Shown: positions 47,951 to 59,808, numbered from the stretch's first letter. The stretch is 59,852 bases of DNA from Microcaldota archaeon (GCA_021804105.1 JAJZKP010000004.1:1-59852); one strand, 5' to 3'. Program-made: numbers and translations. Notes: a model not told the origin generated them from the letters alone.

Positions 47951-49399
47951 TCAATTCATGGAAGGTGGCGGCGAACGGTCTATGATCCTTAACCTCTCCA
48001 CGTATTGTATGTATGGGTCTATGGCTTCGGCAAGCTGCGACTGGGGCAGCATGCAAAGGTACTTTATCCTATGCTCGAACTGCTCTTCGGAGAGTTGGCC
48101 AAGCGAGACGCTTTGCGCCAGATACACGGTGTATGGCGCCACATAGGACCTGTAGCTCGAAGAGCCCACATGGTAATCATTATTGGATAGAAGGTCATGG
48201 ACGTGCACATTGCGCATTATCCTGAATATCTCGGCAAGCTGCGTGTTGGAAAAATTGCCTCCCGCGGCACCGCGCAAATATTCGGTAGTAAGGACCTGCT
48301 GTACAGGCCTGAGGTCCCTGTATGACGATAGTGTATCTAGCAGGGATTCACGCGAAGGTGCATAGACCAGATCGTTGTCATGGTACAGCATCTTGTCCAT
48401 GAACTCCCCGAGCATATCCGTTATTATTGTGTCGTTGCCATTGAGCAGGCTGCCGTCATCAAACGGTTCGAGTATTCTTTTCATGAAATCCCTCTGCAGC
48501 AGATGGCCAGCTTCCTCAGCCACGTCTTCGTCGATATTCATGTATCTGCCCATTAAGGAGAGCATGAACCTGGCCAGGTTTGGGTGATCCGAATAGGCCA
48601 GCACCGTGTCTGCTACTATATCGCTGCAGAATTCTTCAACGAACTTGGCCGGGGCTTCCCCCACAGCAAACATAAAGTCTTCCCTTGCCAGTTCGTCTCC
48701 TCCACGCTTCAGATACAAGGCTCCGCAATATCGTTCGATTCCATCAAGTATTACAGTTATGAGTTCGGGGATGGACTTATATTTTAGCAACGGCATTAGA
48801 ATACGGTCAAGTATGTCCATGTCCTCTATGGCCATTGCATGGTTTGCAATGACAGTATATGCACCGAAGAGCTGATTCGGATTGATGCCGCTTAGAAGCT
48901 CCATCAGTTCCCTGCCGTGATCTGTGCGTATCAGGCGGATGTATCCGGAGAACATGTCCTCGTTGTCCTCTTCCTTGTCGTGATAAACCAATGCGGCATT
49001 GCTTATCCCATTGACAACGCCATGCAGTGCTGCGCTGCCAGAGTATGATTCCACTGTCTCCAGTACATAGCCATGCCTCATTCTCTCAGAGATTAGCTCA
49101 ATGCAGTCATGGCGCCCCAGGCATTCTTCGCTGTCTTCTGAGAGCGCAACTTCGAGCATTCCAAGGACCTGGGTCACTGAATCGCCGAATCGCTTGTATG
49201 CTGAGACAAGTCCTGCTGCTTCTGCTACTGTGCTTGCGCCGTATTTCAGGGCTATTCGCTCCATGTCCTTGAGTATAATGTCATTGAGAGCGCTATCGCA
49301 AGTCAGTGCCCCTGCAACTGCGTTTTTTGCTCCAGGGCCGGCCATGCTGCCTATCCTGTCCAGAGTTGTTGCGCTTCTATCAGCGTATCTGCCCTCCAT
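47951..49399 (-). CDS. Uncharacterised helical protein, paralogue A of a tandem pair
   Basis: Long open frame; C-terminal alignment to 49457-50881, both ending PSMN. Confidence 0.75.
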   Translation of the reverse strand: MEGRYADRSATTLDRIGSMAGPGAKNAVAGALTCDSALNDIILKDMERIALKYGASTVAEAAGLVSAYKRFGDSVTQVLGMLEVALSEDSEECLGRHDCIELISERMRHGYVLETVESYSGSAALHGVVNGISNAALVYHDKEEDNEDMFSGYIRLIRTDHGRELMELLSGINPNQLFGAYTVIANHAMAIEDMDILDRILMPLLKYKSIPELITVILDGIERYCGALYLKRGGDELAREDFMFAVGEAPAKFVEEFCSDIVADTVLAYSDHPNLARFMLSLMGRYMNIDEDVAEEAGHLLQRDFMKRILEPFDDGSLLNGNDTIITDMLGEFMDKMLYHDNDLVYAPSRESLLDTLSSYRDLRPVQQVLTTEYLRGAAGGNFSNTQLAEIFRIMRNVHVHDLLSNNDYHVGSSSYRSYVAPYTVYLAQSVSLGQLSEEQFEHRIKYLCMLPQSQLAEAIDPYIQYVERLRIIDRSPPPSMN

Positions 49400-49456
49400 G
49401 CAATGACACAGCTCTATCAGGTTGCAATCTAGGACTATAAATAATTTACCTGCAAC

Positions 49457-50881
49457 TCAGTTCATAGATGGGGTGCCCCTAAGGCTCTCTACGTAGCTAA
49501 GCATCTGGTAACGTTCCATCTCAGCAGAAAGGCCCTTGAGCGAGAGTGCAAGCAGGTAAATCACATTTTCCTTGAAATCTTCAGGGGTAATGTCTCCCTT
49601 GGCCGTCTGCTGTGCTAGTTCCATAACGCGCTTACCTACCATGAACTGCGCGGCGAAGTTGGGCCTGTATGCTCTTTCGAGAAGGCTCTCTACGTAATCG
49701 TACTTCATCATCTTAAGCATGCTTGCAAGTTGCTCGTCGCTGTTCGTCTCATCTACTACCCTATGCATATACTCCATTGCAAGGGTCATTTGCACTTCGG
49801 GCATTCCCTCATGCTTGTCGAGCAGGTCCAGGAGTACAGCGCGCGAATCCGCGAATTGGGCTTCTGATTCGATCATCTTCGATATAAATTCTGTAATTGT
49901 CTGGTGTACCGGATTATCCTGATCCTCAAGTATGTCATAATCATCAAAGCAGCGTATTATCCTCTTCATGTAGCCCTTGCGCACCTGCTTGGAGGCCATA
50001 AAGGACGCCTCTTCCCCAAGATTTGCATAACCGACCATTATGGGGAGCATTATCCTTGCAAGGGTCTCGCTTTCCGAGTACTCAAACACGGCGCTGCTAA
50101 CAGCATCGCTCGTAGCACGCTGGAGGTATAGGACTGGAGAGGCAAGCAGGACATGCCTGGCATTCTCGTCTATGCCTCGTATCATGCCCATCATGTCCCC
50201 AAGCCGCTCTAGTGCGGTTGTTATGTCAAGCAGTATTCCAGGCATGCCTTTGTATATGGCAAGCTCGGAGAGTATTCTGTCAACAAGCCCGGGATCACCG
50301 GAGACGCGTGCATACTGCTCTACAGAAGCATGGAGCGTGAACATGGCGCCATCATCCAGCGGGCCTAGGGATCTGGAGATGTCCCTGCCGTACTCCTTGC
50401 CAAGTGTCTCAACAAGACCCAGGAATGAAGGTTTTTCCTGTATTTCCCCAAGTGTGTGGTAGAAATATGCCGCACTTGCAATGCTGCTTATGGCTCCGGA
50501 AAACGCGGCCCTATCATCCGCATACGATTTAAGAGTGCGCATGACTACGTCATTGAGCATCCATTCTGAGAGGATGCTTGCACAATCGTGGTCTTCCTTG
50601 CACCTTCCCAAGTTGTCTGGAGTTACGAGTTCGAACATCACAAGCAGGTGCTCCTCGCTTCCAGGAAGACCTCTGTAAACTGCGATGGTCCTTGCAGCAG
50701 AGATCACTGAAGACTCCCTGTTGGTTGATTGGGCCAAGTTTTCCATTACATATAATATCTTATTGTCGTTTCTCTCATCGTTGGTGAGCAGTCTCTCTAC
50801 CGCCATCCTTGCGTCGAACGTGGTTGCGGCCTGTATCCGGTTTAATGCCGCAGTAGACCTCAAGTCTCGCTTGGCCTCCAT
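49457..50881 (-). CDS. Uncharacterised helical protein, paralogue B of a tandem pair
   Basis: Long open frame; likely start MEAKRDLRSTAALN at 50881; similar to 47951-49399. Confidence 0.75.
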   Translation of the reverse strand: MEAKRDLRSTAALNRIQAATTFDARMAVERLLTNDERNDNKILYVMENLAQSTNRESSVISAARTIAVYRGLPGSEEHLLVMFELVTPDNLGRCKEDHDCASILSEWMLNDVVMRTLKSYADDRAAFSGAISSIASAAYFYHTLGEIQEKPSFLGLVETLGKEYGRDISRSLGPLDDGAMFTLHASVEQYARVSGDPGLVDRILSELAIYKGMPGILLDITTALERLGDMMGMIRGIDENARHVLLASPVLYLQRATSDAVSSAVFEYSESETLARIMLPIMVGYANLGEEASFMASKQVRKGYMKRIIRCFDDYDILEDQDNPVHQTITEFISKMIESEAQFADSRAVLLDLLDKHEGMPEVQMTLAMEYMHRVVDETNSDEQLASMLKMMKYDYVESLLERAYRPNFAAQFMVGKRVMELAQQTAKGDITPEDFKENVIYLLALSLKGLSAEMERYQMLSYVESLRGTPSMN

Positions 50882-50988
50882 AAAATCAGAAGAATTGAAA
50901 TGAATCGAATTTGCATCTATAAATAGTTTCTCTACAACAGCGAAGGCCAGCAATGGGCGTGTGGGATAAGTGTTATGGTATTTTATTC

Positions 50989-52436: not shown

Positions 52437-53390
52437 TTGCGTATTTGTTATAATGTGTTTGTTATGATATTCATTCAGGAAGCGATATATAAGAATAAAC
52501 GATCGTCGCCATCTTTAAGTTCGAAGGGTAGACCTAAGGCCCAGTCTGCAATGGAATATCTGATGACATATGGATGGGCTATTCTCATAATAGCAATAGT
52601 TCTAGGTGTGCTCTACTACTTGGGCGTATTCAATGCCACTAATCTGGCACCGCATGCACAGCCAAGTAGTTGCCAGGTCTACAGGCCGAATGGGCCAGGG
52701 AGCCCTCAGTTCCTTTCGCTACAGGGCACATGCGGGCTTCTGCCAACGTATGTGGGTGCATTCGGTAGTGGTTCTGATATATATGGTTCTGTACCCACGC
52801 TGCAAACTGCTACAGGCACGTACGACACAGTTTCTTTCTGGATGTATTGGGCAGGGTCCAGCGGCGAAGTCGTATATGGAGAAGGCGGATCTACAGAGGA
52901 TGGATACACATTGTATTTCCCTAGCTATAACAACTGTTTTGGCTTTAACACAAACCATGGCGACCTGTATGGGGTAAACGCCTTGCCGCTTGCAAACAAG
53001 TGGGTATTTGTAACTGCAGTAATGTACAATGGTGGCTCCTACGTAGGCAATTCCCTGCTATACATAAATGGGGTAAGCCAAGCCCTGACCCAGTGCTCTG
53101 GAACAGCAGAAACCGGATTATCATATACACCATATAACATATCCTATCCAGGCTACTATTTCAATGGAAAGCTTTCTAACTTACAAGTGTATAACAGCTC
53201 GCTATCTGCAAATGACATAAAAGCGCTTTACAATGAAGGTATCGGAGGAGCCCCGCTTGATCTTGAGAATCTAGTTGCATGGATACCTCTCAATGGAAAT
53301 TCGGATGATTACTCTGGTAATCTAAATAGTGGTACGGCAACATCAGTCGCATATACAAGTTCATGGACATCTGGCTATTCTGCGCCTTAA
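52437..53390 (+). CDS. Class III signal peptide protein fused to a LamG/concanavalin-like domain
   Basis: KAQSAMEYLMTYGWAILIIAIVLGVLYYLGVF followed by LSNLQVYNSSLSANDIKALYNEGIGGAPLDLENLVAWIPLNGNSDDYSGN. Confidence 0.8.
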   Translation: MRICYNVFVMIFIQEAIYKNKRSSPSLSSKGRPKAQSAMEYLMTYGWAILIIAIVLGVLYYLGVFNATNLAPHAQPSSCQVYRPNGPGSPQFLSLQGTCGLLPTYVGAFGSGSDIYGSVPTLQTATGTYDTVSFWMYWAGSSGEVVYGEGGSTEDGYTLYFPSYNNCFGFNTNHGDLYGVNALPLANKWVFVTAVMYNGGSYVGNSLLYINGVSQALTQCSGTAETGLSYTPYNISYPGYYFNGKLSNLQVYNSSLSANDIKALYNEGIGGAPLDLENLVAWIPLNGNSDDYSGNLNSGTATSVAYTSSWTSGYSAP

Positions 53391-53491
53391 AGCAATGATC
53401 TGGAGAGCCTTAGATGCAGAGGTACTCTATAACGGTGGGTTCTAAAATAGGATATCTATTGGTGCAAGCATATCGGGGTGCTAAGTCCTAA

Positions 53492-53542
53492 CTCAAGCGC
53501 ATCGCCCGATGCACAAGATGCGCTACAGGCACATCTCCGACA
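53492..53542. repeat. Direct repeat copy A, tRNA-Asn 3'-end-like
   Basis: ctcaagcgcatcgcccgatgcacaagatgcgctacaggcacatctccgaca; nt 53495-53513 identical to 59729-59747. Confidence 0.85.
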
Positions 53543-53552
53543 GTGCATCTTT

Positions 53553-53610
53553 ATAATGTCTTTCAGAGAGGCAATATTTAAATATTTATGTCTTCTATAT
53601 AAGACATTAT
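53553..53610. promoter_or_regulatory. Nested palindromes at the ATPase promoter/start codon
   Basis: ATAATGTCTT (53553-53562) / AAGACATTAT (53601-53610); ATGTCTT (53588-53594) / AAGACAT (53601-53607); AATATTTAAATATT (53573-53586). Confidence 0.7.
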
Positions 53611-54928
53611 GAAAGAGGAGTTCCGCTACGTGGTAAGTGAATGGCTTGCTAGGAAGCTGCCTGAGACCGTAGCGAGAGATGTAAACATAGACCTAAATGC
53701 AGACAAGATAATAGCAATAGCAGGGGTAAGGCGTGCCGGCAAGACCTATCTACTTTTCGACACGATAAAGAAGCTGGCTGGAAGCGGCGTGCCTAGGGAA
53801 AACATGCTTTACATAAATTTTGATGATGATAGGCTGATGGGCCTGGCGAGTGGCGACCTTGATGACATACTAAGCGCTTACTACGAACTGGCGCAGCCTA
53901 AAAAGGATTCTGGCATTTTTTTGTTCTTGGATGAGATACAGAACGTGAAGAACTGGGAGCTGTGGGTAAGGAGAACATACGATTCGAAGAAATGCAGGAT
54001 ATTCATAACGGGATCTAGCTCTAAACTTCTAAGCAGAGAGATTGCCACTTCGCTGGTAGGAAGGAATATAACCTATGTGTTATACCCTTTCTCTTTCAGA
54101 GAGTTTCTCTCAGCAAAAGGCGTAAGGCTAGGGAAGGACATCTTGCATAGCTATGAACGTCATAGAGTAAATGCCTTGGCTAAGGAGTATATGACAAATG
54201 GCGGGTTTCCAGAAACGGCATTTGAAACGGATAGTGAGACAAAGAAGAGGACAATAAGCTCATATTACGATGCAATATTGTACAGGGATATAATAAGCAG
54301 ATATAGGGTTGAGGATGCGAACAGGCTGGAGATGGTCTTCAGATATGCAATTAACACGTATAGCAGCGGGTTCAGCACTGTGAAACTCTACAACTACTTC
54401 AAGAGCCAGAACCTTGGGATAAGCAGGCAGACTATAAGCAATTTTATCAAGTTCGGAGAACAGACGTTCCTCTTCTACCAGCTATTGCAATTCTTTAAGG
54501 GCTTCAAAAGATCCAATCAGTCCAGGAAGAAGTTATATGTTGTTGACAATGCAATAATAACTCTGCTGATATCTAGCCCAGAATACGGAAAATTGCTAGA
54601 AAATATAGTCCTGATTGAACTTCTACGTAGGAAGGAAAGAAACCCGTCTATCGAGCTAAATTACTTAAACAACAAAGAGGGTGAGGTTGATTTTGTAGTT
54701 TCAGAAGGCGGATCTATAAAAGAGCTTATACAGGTGACTTACGAACTTAATCAAAAGAACATGGAGAGGGAACTGAGACCTCTCTTAAGCGCGATGAAGG
54801 AGCTCAAGCCCGAGAGATGTGTGCTAATAACCTTCAATGCCATAGGCAGGGAAACGGTTGTGGAAAAGGGCGTAGAGGCATTGACATTTGTGCAATGGGC
54901 ACTAGGTGCTTACGATAGGAAGCTATAG
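53609..54928 (+). CDS. AAA_14/DUF4143 ATPase
   Basis: Walker A AGVRRAGKTYLLF, FLFLDEIQNVKNWELWVRRTYD, TGSSSKLLSREIATSLVGRNITYVLYPFSFREFL, C-terminal EVDFVVSEGG. Confidence 0.93.
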   Translation: MKEEFRYVVSEWLARKLPETVARDVNIDLNADKIIAIAGVRRAGKTYLLFDTIKKLAGSGVPRENMLYINFDDDRLMGLASGDLDDILSAYYELAQPKKDSGIFLFLDEIQNVKNWELWVRRTYDSKKCRIFITGSSSKLLSREIATSLVGRNITYVLYPFSFREFLSAKGVRLGKDILHSYERHRVNALAKEYMTNGGFPETAFETDSETKKRTISSYYDAILYRDIISRYRVEDANRLEMVFRYAINTYSSGFSTVKLYNYFKSQNLGISRQTISNFIKFGEQTFLFYQLLQFFKGFKRSNQSRKKLYVVDNAIITLLISSPEYGKLLENIVLIELLRRKERNPSIELNYLNNKEGEVDFVVSEGGSIKELIQVTYELNQKNMERELRPLLSAMKELKPERCVLITFNAIGRETVVEKGVEALTFVQWALGAYDRKL

Positions 54929-54947
54929 CTTGTGTCATAGGAGCAGA

Positions 54948-55000
54948 ACTTGAAGGCCATCGCCCGAAGCACAAGATGTGCCACAGGCACATCCCCGACA
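54948..55000. repeat. Direct repeat copy B, tRNA-Asn 3'-end-like, with hairpin GATGTGCC-ACA-GGCACATC
   Basis: acttgaaggccatcgcccgaagcacaagatgtgccacaggcacatccccgaca; aligns with copy A along its length. Confidence 0.85.
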
Positions 55001-55113
55001 AGGAAGTTTTAAATAATGTGTTTTAATTGATGTAAATCGTATAGATTTATTTAAACATATAAGGAACGTACAGAGAAGGTAGGATACTAAAACATATTAG
55101 TATGGTCTGATTT

Positions 55114-55638
55114 ATGGCTAAAAACAAGCATTTAATTTTTACTATAGGCCACTCAACACATAAGCTTAGAGAATTTGTGAGGTTGCTGGACGCATACAAG
55201 ATAAAGGAATTAGTAGATATACGTACCATACCTAAATCTCGGGTCAATCCGCAGTTCAACGAGAAACGACTTGCTGCTGGCCTAAAGAGGCATCGCATAC
55301 GCTACATGCATATGAAAGGACTCGGAGGCCTCAGGCACCCGTTGAAGAACTCAGCCAATACATACTGGTACAATGCGTCATTCAGAGGTTTCGCAGACTA
55401 TATGCAGACCAGCGAGTTCAGAGAGAGTCTCATCGAGCTTATAAGCCTGGCAAAGAAAAGGCAGACGGCCATAATGTGTGCAGAGGCAGTGCCATGGAGA
55501 TGTCATAGATCGCTGATAGCAGATGCACTTCTCGTCAGGGGTGTGGATGTCAGACACATCTTCAGTCCAACCAATTCAAAATCACACGAGCTAACAAAAA
55601 GCGCAAGGGTGAACAGATTGAATATAGTGTATAAATAA
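55114..55638 (+). CDS. DUF488 family protein
   Basis: IFTIGHSTHKLREFVRLLDAYKIKELVDIRTIPKSRVNPQFN...YMHMKGLGGLR...AIMCAEAVPWRCHRSLIADAL. Confidence 0.93.
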   Translation: MAKNKHLIFTIGHSTHKLREFVRLLDAYKIKELVDIRTIPKSRVNPQFNEKRLAAGLKRHRIRYMHMKGLGGLRHPLKNSANTYWYNASFRGFADYMQTSEFRESLIELISLAKKRQTAIMCAEAVPWRCHRSLIADALLVRGVDVRHIFSPTNSKSHELTKSARVNRLNIVYK

Positions 55639-55643
55639 CCGGC

Positions 55644-56081
55644 ATGCAAGAGATAATCGGTGCGTTTATGGATAATGTTGCTGCAACGAGCAAGATGGTA
55701 AAGCTTTACATAGCTACGGGATTCTTGTATTTCGTAATCGGTACGATACTTCTTGCTTTTAGCATGTCAGGCGCAGTCGCTGTAAGTAGAGACCCGATAT
55801 TCATACTATTATTGTATGGCTTTGTCACACAGCTGATTTTTGGCGTTTCGTACATCTTCGTGCCTGGAGTTTCCCGACATAGCGGGGCCAATTACAAGGC
55901 AATAATTGCAGAATACATTCTTCTGAATTCAGGGATAATTGTATTTGAGGGTGTTGCACTTACTGGCCGGAAGGATGTTGTGGTGCTACTTGGAGGTCTA
56001 ATAGCGTTAATTATAGCTGTCCTGCTGCATGCAATTAACATATGGCACACGATAATTGGCAGGAAAAAAGGTACGGTGTGA
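55644..56081 (+). CDS. Small multi-pass membrane protein, unknown function
   Basis: About four predicted TM segments; possible start MDNVAATSKMVKLY. Confidence 0.7.
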   Translation: MQEIIGAFMDNVAATSKMVKLYIATGFLYFVIGTILLAFSMSGAVAVSRDPIFILLLYGFVTQLIFGVSYIFVPGVSRHSGANYKAIIAEYILLNSGIIVFEGVALTGRKDVVVLLGGLIALIIAVLLHAINIWHTIIGRKKGTV

Positions 56082-56385
56082 TTATAACATTATGTCATCC
56101 TGTCCAACGCTTCATTCCTTGCCTTGTCATCTATATAATCGTCAATCAATGGGCATATGTCTCCCTCTCCATCTTATGATGCCCTATCGCCAGCTGCTCC
56201 AGATTCGTCTCCGGTTCATATCTCTGTTCTTTAATCTTGTAAATATTCTGTTTAAATCACACTTATCTTATGGTGCTGCAATACCTGCCCGCCTATCATT
56301 GCCGAACCTTCTTCCAGCCTCTGTTTGGCGTGAGTGGCGTATAGCAATTTAAATGGTTTAGTCGCATATTAGTATAGGGGGTTAG

Positions 56386-59300
56386 GTGGTATTGCCCATA
56401 ACCAGAAAGAGTCCAAACTACATTATTATTCTAATTGCTGCAGTGTCGGTAGCCATAATTGCTGTGTTCCTACTTACAATTAGGTTACAGGGAACACCAC
56501 AGGCAGAAAATCTTAGCATGCCAGACCCTTATACTCATCTTGGCAATGCCTCGTTCGCGCTGGTTGCTCCATATAATGTTTTGTCAGCTAATGGCAGGTT
56601 CGCATCACTGGCAAGCGAGAGATATGATTTCAGGTACACCGACGCAGCGAATTTCACAAGTGTAGAGAACTCCACATTCATAGTAATTGTAGTAAACAGT
56701 AGTAGCGGTGCGTACGCGCAACTTGCAACGAAAGCCATCAATATCACAGAGCTTGACAGTGCTCTGAATTACACAAAAGGCGCAATGATAAGCAAGTATA
56801 ATGTATGGGGTTCCGCACAGACCGTCTTTCTGTTAATAGGATATAATGCAAGCTCGCTTTCTTCAGCTCTGTTGAGTTTTTTTGTTAAAAGCCCTGTCTA
56901 CGCCCCAAAGCAGTTTAGCGTAAGGTTCGTGAATGAGAGCGGCAAGGCACCTGGTGATCCCGTAATGGATGCGGTTCTTGACGGCACTTATGAGCTCAGT
57001 CCACATGACAGCGCACTTCCATACCCCTACAGCTATTACGATAACTTTGCATACCTGATATATTATGCTCCTGTGATAACTTCGATAGTTCCTGGATTTG
57101 AAGGCAACAGTTCAGGTTCTGGATTGCCGCTGTCTGCTCCAATATGCATGCCGCCTCCTCCTCCCCCTGGAGGCGGTTCATCGATGTGCATAGGCGATTA
57201 TGCTGCGATGCCAATGCTGCAGGTAGGAAGTGCGCCCCCTTTACGTCCGCAGTGGAGCTATGATACTGGAGACTGCGAGTTCTTTGGCATAGATGACTGC
57301 ATAGATGCTGAGGGCTGGGCTGCTTCGGGCCTGAACCCGCAGCTTCCCTACAGAGAGATACCAAGCGTCTACTTCGGAGTCACTTTTACTGGAAGCCCTG
57401 TTCCTCCTTCGATGGATGGCACATTTGGCCCCGTGTCGGACAGCCTCCCAATCACCTGGTGGGTTTATGGGCCGAGCTCGTTCGGAGAATCGACCGGAGG
57501 GTTTCAATCAAGCCTATCTGGGGTTATGAACGAGTCTGAGACTGCGCTGCTGATCAACGCAGGCGTTGATATGTTCTCTGCACCCATAGGCGAAACCCCA
57601 GTCGGCAATTTTACCGTATACAACGCAACAAACTCCTCTTCTACGTATTCGTGCGGCAGCGAAATATGCGGGATGAAATTCAACTACACCATATACGCGC
57701 TCCTTAACATATCATCCACGATACCAGGGGACGCATCGGTGGCGTCTCCGCGGGGATACTCGCCAAACCCGCAGCTTAACTATTCGCCTGTGCTGGAACC
57801 TGTGTCGCTCTCCACGCCCAAGATTGTGAAAACCTCTGCGCAGACATACTACTTCAGTTACTGGAGTGTCTACTCCGAGCTGGCAGGCAACCAATACTAC
57901 AAAAAATACAGCACGTCAAATATAACATTCCAGCTTATAGGGCCCACGCAGGCCAGGGCTATATACACAACAAATACTACTGCGGCCAACGGCCCTGGCA
58001 ATGTTATAATATACAGTGATTATATTCCTATGTTCCAGTTTGGGTCATGTTCTAACAACCCTGCAAACTGCACAAAGTATGGGAGTTATTACCGGATACC
58101 AAATGTCTCTGTGTCCATATCGATACCTGGGGGGAAGGAGGTATTTTCAGGAGCCACAAACGCAACGGCAATGGCAGTTACTGGAAAGCTTGCAGGCGGG
58201 TGCTACAATATCGCAGTCTCTAAGCAGGGTTACAATCTTTTCGCAGATCCGAATCCGCTATGCGTCAACGGCGTAACATCGTTGTTCCTAGTCGATACGG
58301 ATCCCTATATATTTGATATAACGTGGCCTTCATCATATCCGTATGCACTTGCGCCTGTCAACGGCACTATACCAATTAACGTATCCGTGCGCTACGCCAG
58401 CACCGGTGCATCTGCAGGAAATTCCTCGAGGTATCTGTATGCACACACCACTTCAGGCGTAATGGAAGGATACTCTTCTGGGCGCATAGTAAACGGCTAT
58501 TCAAACCTCTCAGCAAATGGAACTGCAGACTTTTTGTGGGAGGTTGGCAAAACTCCAGGGATGCACGTGATAAACTTTACAATCGGCGTGGGATGGCCCA
58601 TACTGTCGGAATCCTACTCTATGCCGGTGGTTGCCTATTCCGGCAATTATTTGAGGACAGAGTTGAACATAAGCCTTTCAAATACAACAGAATACGCTTC
58701 TCCGGGAGAGTCTTTCGCTGACAACATAACCGTAAGACTGTGCAGAACGTATCTTATTTCAAACAGGTCGCTGCCCTGTATGCCCTTAATGCCGTATGCT
58801 TCAAACATGTCTTTGATATACGTGAATGACAGGCCGGCCAACACTACTGCAGTATTTGTACCGGATCCAGCCCCTGCAAATTCAGAATCATTAAGCGACA
58901 TGGCATCCTTACGTATATCTCTAGGCAGTGGTGTGCGAAATGGCCTGTATGTAGCCAGGATAACTTCAGTTATGCATACTTCCAATGCAACATACAATTC
59001 AACTGTGCCGCTGCTGATATATGTACCTAAAAATACATCTGCGAACAACAGCACGACAACCATACCGCCAACAAGTATATCAACCACAACAATACCTATT
59101 GTTTCAGGATATGGGGCGCTTAACATAAATGTGTTTTTCAATGGCGCTCCTGCCCCTGCTGCTGAAGTAGGTGCATTCTCGCCAGGCATACAAACTTACA
59201 GTGGATGGTACACTAATTCGAACGGCGAATACTATACTGGATATATAATACCACCTGGCAGCTACGAGGTTGATGGCACCTATCACAATATAACCAATAG

Positions 59301-59574
59301 CACGAACTATCTTAACGTCAGCGCGGGGAAAGTGACATACGTTGATATATACATTTATGGCACTGTAAACACAACTACAACGTCATCTACAACCACCACA
59401 ACTTCGATAACATCTACCTCTTCCACAAGCACTATGCCGTCTTCTACCACTACTGTGCAATCCGGCTATTACGAATGCAATGTGTGTTATAAAGTGATTG
59501 AGGCTGGATTTACCTGCCCATCAACATGCCCTACATCAGTATTGTGCAACTACGGCGGTTTTAAATGCACCTAA
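56386..59574 (+). CDS. Large secreted/cell-surface protein with Thr/Ser-rich stalk and Cys-rich C-terminus
   Basis: N-terminal TM IIILIAAVSVAIIAVFLLTI; many N-x-S/T sites; TTTTSSTTTTTSITSTSSTST stalk; CNVCYKVIEAGFTCPSTCPTSVLCNYGGFKC. Confidence 0.78.
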   Translation: MVLPITRKSPNYIIILIAAVSVAIIAVFLLTIRLQGTPQAENLSMPDPYTHLGNASFALVAPYNVLSANGRFASLASERYDFRYTDAANFTSVENSTFIVIVVNSSSGAYAQLATKAINITELDSALNYTKGAMISKYNVWGSAQTVFLLIGYNASSLSSALLSFFVKSPVYAPKQFSVRFVNESGKAPGDPVMDAVLDGTYELSPHDSALPYPYSYYDNFAYLIYYAPVITSIVPGFEGNSSGSGLPLSAPICMPPPPPPGGGSSMCIGDYAAMPMLQVGSAPPLRPQWSYDTGDCEFFGIDDCIDAEGWAASGLNPQLPYREIPSVYFGVTFTGSPVPPSMDGTFGPVSDSLPITWWVYGPSSFGESTGGFQSSLSGVMNESETALLINAGVDMFSAPIGETPVGNFTVYNATNSSSTYSCGSEICGMKFNYTIYALLNISSTIPGDASVASPRGYSPNPQLNYSPVLEPVSLSTPKIVKTSAQTYYFSYWSVYSELAGNQYYKKYSTSNITFQLIGPTQARAIYTTNTTAANGPGNVIIYSDYIPMFQFGSCSNNPANCTKYGSYYRIPNVSVSISIPGGKEVFSGATNATAMAVTGKLAGGCYNIAVSKQGYNLFADPNPLCVNGVTSLFLVDTDPYIFDITWPSSYPYALAPVNGTIPINVSVRYASTGASAGNSSRYLYAHTTSGVMEGYSSGRIVNGYSNLSANGTADFLWEVGKTPGMHVINFTIGVGWPILSESYSMPVVAYSGNYLRTELNISLSNTTEYASPGESFADNITVRLCRTYLISNRSLPCMPLMPYASNMSLIYVNDRPANTTAVFVPDPAPANSESLSDMASLRISLGSGVRNGLYVARITSVMHTSNATYNSTVPLLIYVPKNTSANNSTTTIPPTSISTTTIPIVSGYGALNINVFFNGAPAPAAEVGAFSPGIQTYSGWYTNSNGEYYTGYIIPPGSYEVDGTYHNITNSTNYLNVSAGKVTYVDIYIYGTVNTTTTSSTTTTTSITSTSSTSTMPSSTTTVQSGYYECNVCYKVIEAGFTCPSTCPTSVLCNYGGFKCT

Positions 59575-59736
59575 GGCGTCGGCGCGTTACGGCAGTGCAA
59601 GGCACGCGTGTAAGTTTTATGTAACGGCACATCGTTAGGCATATTGAGGTACTTTGCGCCTAGTGGCCTTATTCTGGAGACCAGCTTTTAGGGGAAGGAC
59701 GCAGAAAGGTAGTGGGGGCCGTACTTGAAGCGCATC

Positions 59737-59808
59737 GCCCGATGCAGGGATCGAACCTGCGACATCCTGGTTAACAGCCAAGCGCTCTACCACTGAGCTA
59801 ATCGGGCA
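59737..59808 (-). tRNA. tRNA-Asn (anticodon GTT)
   Basis: Reverse complement GCCCGATTAGCTCAGTGGTAGAGCGCTTGGCTGTTAACCAGGATGTCGCAGGTTCGATCCCTGCATCGGGCG; loop CTGTTAA. Confidence 0.96.

Follow-up and report, generated by a model that had tools for sequence, protein, structure and literature searches.

The accretion of integrative elements and of cis-mobilizable elements (CIMEs) at the 3' ends of target genes has been reviewed (PMC5704250). In Acinetobacter, small pdif (dif) modules, mainly on plasmids, are attributed to the host XerCD recombinase (PMC6449649). Integration of SNJ2 uses a 13-bp att site at the acceptor end of a tRNA; membership in its family requires at least 30% identity across 60% of the protein, and this family has been reported from Halobacteria only, with no cassette arrays described for it (PMC8371274).

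Here we compare these systems with an array of genes at the tRNA-Asn gene of a Micrarchaeota genome. The array resembles CIME accretion in that integrase-less, att-flanked units are stacked at a tRNA 3' end, decayed integrase remnants occur and the innermost site keeps the tRNA intact (PMC5704250). However, the Micrarchaeota units are only about 1 kb long, mostly carry a single gene and circulate between genera and families; they often have a TATA box by the att site, and they form multi-site arrays across an archaeal order. With integrons and CALINs, archaeal ones included, the array shares copies in one orientation, adaptive cargo, an integrase that is often absent, and the gain, loss and reordering of cassettes (PMC9668308). 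Unlike integrons, it has no attC boxes and no folded-strand signature, and no attI/intI platform was recognised; its platform is a tRNA gene, and over half of the copies have a TATA box by the site. Like pdif modules, the cassettes are small adaptive or toxin-antitoxin modules with short tyrosine-recombinase sites in one lineage, but the Micrarchaeota sites all point one way at a tRNA gene and have a dedicated integrase linked to them (PMC6449649). With SNJ2-type and XerA-related integrases the system shares a whole, non-suicidal integrase beside its tRNA target and a short att site, while its complete element holds type I restriction-modification genes, with no virus genes recognised (PMC8371274).

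When the alignments were read for the attC simple sites RYYYAAC/GTTRRRY, without a covariance model, no conserved boxes were seen in the consensus of 45-57 copies. The linked integrase is like archaeal XerA-like and pleomorphic-virus integrases, although no dedicated IntI model was used. Since attC boxes and a folded site are missing and the platform is tRNA-Asn, we do not class the array as an integron. By analogy, it can be described as working like an integron or dif-module array, while mechanistically it would be tRNA accretion of CIME-like elements reduced to single genes.

The array at tRNA-Asn

The window is the whole stretch of 59,852 nt that was analysed, and positions are counted from its first letter. 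A first-pass annotation had proposed stacked integrations at tRNA-Asn, delimited by two upstream copies of the tRNA 3' end. The parts of the locus are listed below; L110 is the corresponding locus of a close relative.

52437-53471, plus strand: left chromosomal flank, a LamG-domain gene (52437-53390; Pfam Laminin_G_3) and about 80 nt
53492-53543, plus strand: att copy A, the distal full att site of the array
53550-53557, plus strand: TATA-like box TTTATAAT at a fixed distance after copy A (read from the sequence)
53609-54928, plus strand: cassette 1, AAA_14/DUF4143 ATPase, 439 aa (Pfam; PADLOC candidate family PDC-S01)
54926-55001, plus strand: att copy B with left arm (core repeat 54948-55001)
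55007-55017, plus strand: TATA-like box TTTTAAATAAT after copy B (read from the sequence; positional enrichment)
55114-55638, plus strand: cassette 2, DUF488 protein, 174 aa (Pfam)
55644-56081, plus strand: cassette 2, small membrane protein, 145 aa, which accompanies DUF488 in other arrays
56090-56211, minus strand: hemerythrin gene remnant of cassette 2 (tblastn match to the hemerythrin gene of L110, in two frames, E 2.4e-8)
56386-59574, plus strand: cassette 3, surface protein, 1062 aa
59721-59746, plus strand: tRNA-junction half site, the end of the left arm and the 12-nt acceptor-stem core
59735-59808, minus strand: tRNA-Asn (GTT), the integration platform (ARAGORN and Rfam)

The tRNA gene and both copies are found where the annotation had placed them. 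Copy A and the 3' end and flank of tRNA-Asn agree at 19 of 19 nt (E 0.001 in the 805-kb genome), as had been stated, and copy B, then called a near match, is 91% identical to copy A over 43 nt (E 2.6e-11 in the same genome). This likeness reaches far past the tRNA-derived part, so the repeat is not simply a duplicated tRNA end. Copies A and B and the tRNA junction belong to one type of att site, about 51 nt long, observed in a single orientation and on the 3' side of the tRNA. Matches scattered over the genome would have refuted the proposal; a search of the rest of the 34-contig genome with the repeat gave none better than chance.

Between copies A and B there is, as annotated, a single ORF, the AAA_14/DUF4143 ATPase. 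The DUF488 protein, the small membrane protein and the surface protein that had been placed between copy B and the tRNA are there as well, and the interval is probably two cassettes fused by deletion. This is inferred from the antisense, frameshifted remnant of a hemerythrin C-terminus, which lies where L110 has an intact gene followed by an att site; the remnant likely marks the att site lost between cassettes 2 and 3. A surface protein 84% identical to that of cassette 3 is alone in its own att-bounded interval in locus L115 and is accompanied by an AHSA1-type gene in L110. No Pfam match was found for the small membrane protein. Elsewhere in the window, two neighbouring minus-strand ORFs of 482 and 498 aa (47951-50953) have similar ends (..PPPSMN and ..TPSMN), and neither has a match in Pfam.

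The right-hand end of contig C18, from a MAG that is 75% complete, makes up the window. The annotation had suggested that an integrase, absent from the window, might lie beyond its right edge. This can now be dismissed for the adjoining contig: the reverse-complemented end of contig C19 overlaps the last 127 nt of the window exactly, and C19 runs through tRNA-Asn into core genes without an integrase. The one-k-mer overlap suggests that the assembly graph branches where the tRNA has its 3' end. Just past the overlap comes the variable Y of ACY|TGAAG, which would be expected if, as we infer, a second cassette adjoined the tRNA in part of the population. On another contig of the same genome (C14, locus L228, 960-2802), a 34-nt duplication of the 3' region of tRNA-Glu brackets about 1.8 kb with an integrase ORF of 276 aa; this is a tiny integrated element.

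Anatomy of the att site

The consensus of 57 copies reads ACYTGAAGSBCATCGCCCGAWGCACAAGATGYGCGTCAGGCRCATCTCCGACAAGGAGGA; a second alignment contains 45 sequences. The left half with the core (TGAAG..CATCGCCCGAWGCA) is the part present at the tRNA junction, while the right half contains AGATGYGC-N5-GCRCATCT. The motif GCRCATC appears three times, forward, reverse and forward, and the variable W is the centre of a dyad, CATC-N13-GATG. Our inference is that these repeats and the dyad are double-stranded protein-binding half-sites around the overlap of a tyrosine recombinase. A hairpin or attC-like site was rejected for lack of covariation. In the first helix 91.7% of the cells are paired, against 91.6% in shuffles, and in the second dyad 83.2% against 84.0%; neither shows compensation, and the covariation scores of both helices are at or below the shuffle mean.

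A TATA-like box begins 6-7 nt past the att site in 55 of 99 copies, while such boxes are found in only 1.9% of random 35-mers. A reverse-strand box is also enriched in the left arm (23/98 copies against 5.7% of random 30-mers), with only a weak link to antisense cassette genes. Some tRNA-Asn genes have no left arm in their 3' flank (L112, L136, L137 and L140), and the arm must therefore be element-borne. Interior att copies without a left half occur in L114, L131 and L298. Displaced 3' fragments of tRNA-Asn, about 30-55 nt long compared with the usual core of 12 nt, are seen in the arrays of L117 (10442-10500) and L121 (7532-7580).

Distribution among genomes

The repeat is present in 34 of 60 relatives (E <= 0.1), often as arrays adjoining tRNA-Asn, and in 58 of 301 genomes of the phylum (E <= 1e-6), all of them in two families of the window's order. 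Further, a scan of 84,980 species genomes with a degenerate pattern returned 42 stretches, labelled almost entirely Candidatus Micrarchaeota. The remaining labels are four 'Marsarchaeota' records, one 'bacterium' and one Oscillospiraceae. One of the 'Marsarchaeota' records and the 'bacterium' record agree in length with contigs of genomes in the window's family; the Oscillospiraceae match is partial (15.9 bits) and was judged to be chance. In the viral collection no contig contained an exact match to the pattern. In the genomes scanned, the integron-like system was found essentially only in one order of tiny archaea within the Micrarchaeota.

In total 101 unique att copies were collected from Micrarchaeota MAGs at a threshold of at least 25 bits. 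Polarity is observed without exception: each of the 57 copies that share an examined stretch with tRNA-Asn lies 3' of the gene and is oriented towards it.

It should be kept in mind that all genomes are MAGs, and that the bins of G007, G019 and G038 seem to contain array contigs from more than one strain. Each of these bins has two different tRNA-Asn or tRNA-adjacent loci (L108 and L109, L115 and L116, and L124 and L125, respectively), and strain mixing around the array is suggested for them. Statements about hosts are subject to this caveat of binning; the order of genes in a contig is not, and several of the contigs are long (771, 484 and 438 kb).

Exchange of cassettes

All 84 repeat-bounded intervals have copies of the same orientation at both ends. 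Their median length is 986 bp, and 45 of them contain a single ORF. The cargo comprises toxin-antitoxin, defence-like, metal-transport and surface-protein genes. Found in the intervals are AAA_14/DUF4143, DUF488, hemerythrin and AHSA1-domain proteins, large surface proteins and hydrolases; a PemK/MazF-like toxin with a VapB-like antitoxin, AbiEi/AbiEii and Fic/DOC; and RibD_C reductase-like proteins, an E1-E2 (P-type) ATPase, a CitMHS-type transporter and a protein of the uracil-DNA-glycosylase family. AAA_14 and DUF488 match candidate defence families in PADLOC.

Had gene order been conserved in all relatives, the proposed insertions would have been refuted. L110 has the same two flanks as the window, being 90% identical up to 53471, just ahead of the first att copy, and 91% identical over 6.3 kb from 59721, with a tRNA-adjacent gene that is 97% identical; between these flanks it holds a different set of cassettes. 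The order in the window is AAA_14, DUF488 with the membrane protein, and the surface protein. In L110 it is a P-type ATPase, a surface protein with the AHSA1-type gene, a different AAA_14, and DUF488 with the membrane protein and hemerythrin. Cassettes have been gained, lost and reordered between the two. The repeat, its polarity and these alternative cassettes support the annotation's main proposal, stacked site-specific integrations at tRNA-Asn. The comparison of tRNA-Asn loci that it had called for showed alternative occupancy and bare flanks, among them L137, a bare tRNA flank with other genes; no exact empty site with the window's distal flank was found.

Exchange is also observed between more distant genomes. 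The bodies of AAA_14 cassettes are 95.6-96.8% identical across six genomes, and beyond the outer att sites identity drops to 20-39%. The AAA_14 protein of the window is 97-98% identical in G001, G002 and G007; in one contig (L103) it is 97.7% identical while the core gene is only 50% identical. DUF488 proteins in cassettes of other genomes are 85-94% identical to that of the window, and in G039, which belongs to another family, the figure is 94% against 26% for the tRNA-adjacent core gene. The locus is one instance of an order-wide system of exchanged, mostly single-gene cassettes, not one of a few decayed islands.

G039 has two arrays, both with DUF488 cassettes. One is on the tRNA-Asn contig (L127, 5735-10630), and the other is at a look-alike of the core, CGCCCGAAGCAGGCG, beside a protein gene (L314, 3059-10527). 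The look-alike is possibly a secondary integration site.

The letters of the core provide a further observation. In 33 of 51 cases the core in the array is unlike that of the host's own tRNA; L103, for instance, has the host core CGCCCGCTG and array cores CTG, AAG and ATG. It follows that cores travel with the cassettes. This fits conservative site-specific recombination better than target-site duplication of the casposon-like kind, which we disfavour for the same reason. The att arms of the nearly identical AAA_14 cassettes (window 53492-53545 and 54926-54957 compared with L103, L104, L108, L178 and L185) are only 57-86% identical, against about 96% for the bodies, and look mosaic. Exchange is thus not confined to one point of the core; there are either multiple exchange points or conversion between att sites.

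The integrase IntAsn

In locus L105 a tyrosine integrase of 408 aa, which we call IntAsn, was found (PF00589, E 1.7e-21). The CRIGE, HAFR, GW and Y motifs of the R..HxxR..Y pattern can be read in the sequence, and a zinc-ribbon-like stretch is present at the C-terminus. The start of the gene is 58 nt inside the left arm; the element, 13 kb long, ends at a full att copy and also carries the type I restriction-modification genes and a winged-helix/PCNA-like protein.

A search of the phylum (301 genomes) identified IntAsn, 79-95% identical to that of L105, in G203, G254, G190, G035 and G173 besides G004. Of these, G004, G203 and G190 carry it at full length, and in G254 it runs open to a contig end. 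The next relatives are at most 42% identical, and the more distant integrases that were examined are mostly located at other tRNAs. In L215, L294, L295 and L296 IntAsn is just inside the left arm and directly beside tRNA-Asn, within the innermost element, and truncated N-terminal pieces of it, likewise 79-95% identical, are observed just inside the left arm (L193, L201 and L209) or beside tRNA-Asn (L121); L108 retains only the first 17 codons. The pairwise dN/dS of IntAsn copies is 0.03-0.09, and judged from its coding sequence alone the gene is under purifying selection. IntAsn was not found in the window's own genome, which is 75% complete.

Integrases of archaeal pleomorphic viruses match IntAsn best among the phage records (28-31% identity over 67-77% of the query); these figures do not come from the reference set of the SNJ2-type family. 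The best matches in the PDB are XerA/XerC/XerD-like enzymes. No relative of IntAsn was found in the viral collection, and a viral or plasmid carrier was rejected, as plasmid and phage records contain only distant integrases.

Integrases of about 400 aa also adjoin tRNA-Glu, Gly, Gln, Val, Ala, Arg and Thr genes in Micrarchaeota relatives (L218-L224, L227 and L231-L233) and are 27-38% identical to IntAsn. The tRNA target has therefore diversified many times within a single integrase family. No cassette-type repeats were seen at these other tRNAs in the stretches examined.

Proposed mechanism and alternatives

The association of IntAsn and its remnants with att sites makes movement in trans the simplest model for cassettes that have no integrase. 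This was one of the options that the annotation had left for a window without an integrase, and it is the one we favour. We put the probability at about 0.8 that the locus is an array in which mobile cassettes without an integrase accrete at the tRNA-Asn 3' end and owe their movement to IntAsn acting in trans. A cassette would be a small circle in which the right half of att is followed, usually after a TATA promoter, by one or a few genes and then by the left half. IntAsn, targeting tRNA-Asn and encoded by a related autonomous element, would recombine the att site of the circle with one of two partners, the 12-nt acceptor-stem core of the tRNA gene or an att site that the array already contains, by a crossover through the shared core CGCCCGAWGCA. 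The tRNA would stay intact and a full att site would be regenerated, so that the next cassette could enter. Most cassettes would have lost the integrase gene and would move in trans. Three points are inferred: catalysis by IntAsn, the existence of circles and continuing activity. Excised circles were not observed, and none of the 17 contigs examined for circularity showed a terminal self-overlap. It also counts against the model that intact IntAsn is rare, that the arms are mosaic and that some interior copies have no left half.

These weaknesses are where other explanations find support. If the locus were no more than a pile of old integrations, static or in slow decay, with no active site-specific recombination and with homologous recombination between cassettes and att copies as its only source of reshuffling, then decayed genes, fused cassettes, half sites, mosaic arms and the scarcity of intact integrases would all be expected. 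However, purifying selection on IntAsn is not, nor are near-identical cassettes in otherwise diverged genomes where the identity of the flanks collapses from the att sites outwards, and sites of 51 nt that are about 90% alike are, we infer, short for homologous exchange. Such a pile seems unlikely to us. The rarity of intact IntAsn could also mean that the host recombinase XerA moves the cassettes, as XerCD does for the dif modules of Acinetobacter, and that IntAsn elements only have the site in common with them. These genomes commonly encode PF00589 proteins of about 300 aa, and small adaptive modules with short sites do resemble dif modules (PMC6449649). A host Xer enzyme does not, however, predict IntAsn and its remnants just inside the site, and the site contains the end of tRNA-Asn and points at it in every case; we hold this explanation to be rather improbable.

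Nor can much be said for the idea that the repeat is a non-coding RNA gene, or a selfish repeat containing a tRNA end, with ordinary accessory genes between the copies. The repeat does have inverted repeats, folds slightly better than shuffles and is followed in many copies by a TATA box. But an Rfam search found no RNA family besides tRNAs, covariation is lacking, the boundaries of identity coincide with the copies, and the polarity towards tRNA-Asn is uniform, so that this idea retains hardly any credibility.

It is a wider claim that a trans-acting integrase, an essential tRNA gene as platform, cassettes that often bear a promoter and core letters recording the previous host's tRNA together make up an independent archaeal counterpart of the integron, dedicated to cassette capture and confined to one order of ultra-small DPANN archaea. 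Here we consider the chances to be about even. Publications on archaeal integrons, archaeal tyrosine recombinases and islands of acid-mine archaea did not mention Micrarchaeota as far as they were covered, and as this coverage is incomplete the novelty is provisional. There is a fair chance that the array deserves the name of a separate cassette-array system.

Implications for Micrarchaeota

Micrarchaeota, with genomes of about 1 Mb, are presumed to be host-dependent, and by what route they acquire genes is an open question. The locus offers a route that is concrete and open to testing: toxin-antitoxin, defence-like, metal-transport, oxygen-binding and surface genes are gathered on a fixed platform, and near-identical cassettes occur across genera and families. 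The letters of the core are a natural tag of a cassette's previous host, and IntAsn together with its short site may be of use as a tool for integration in archaea. The array would extend the short list of cassette-array systems, integrons and dif modules, to the DPANN archaea.
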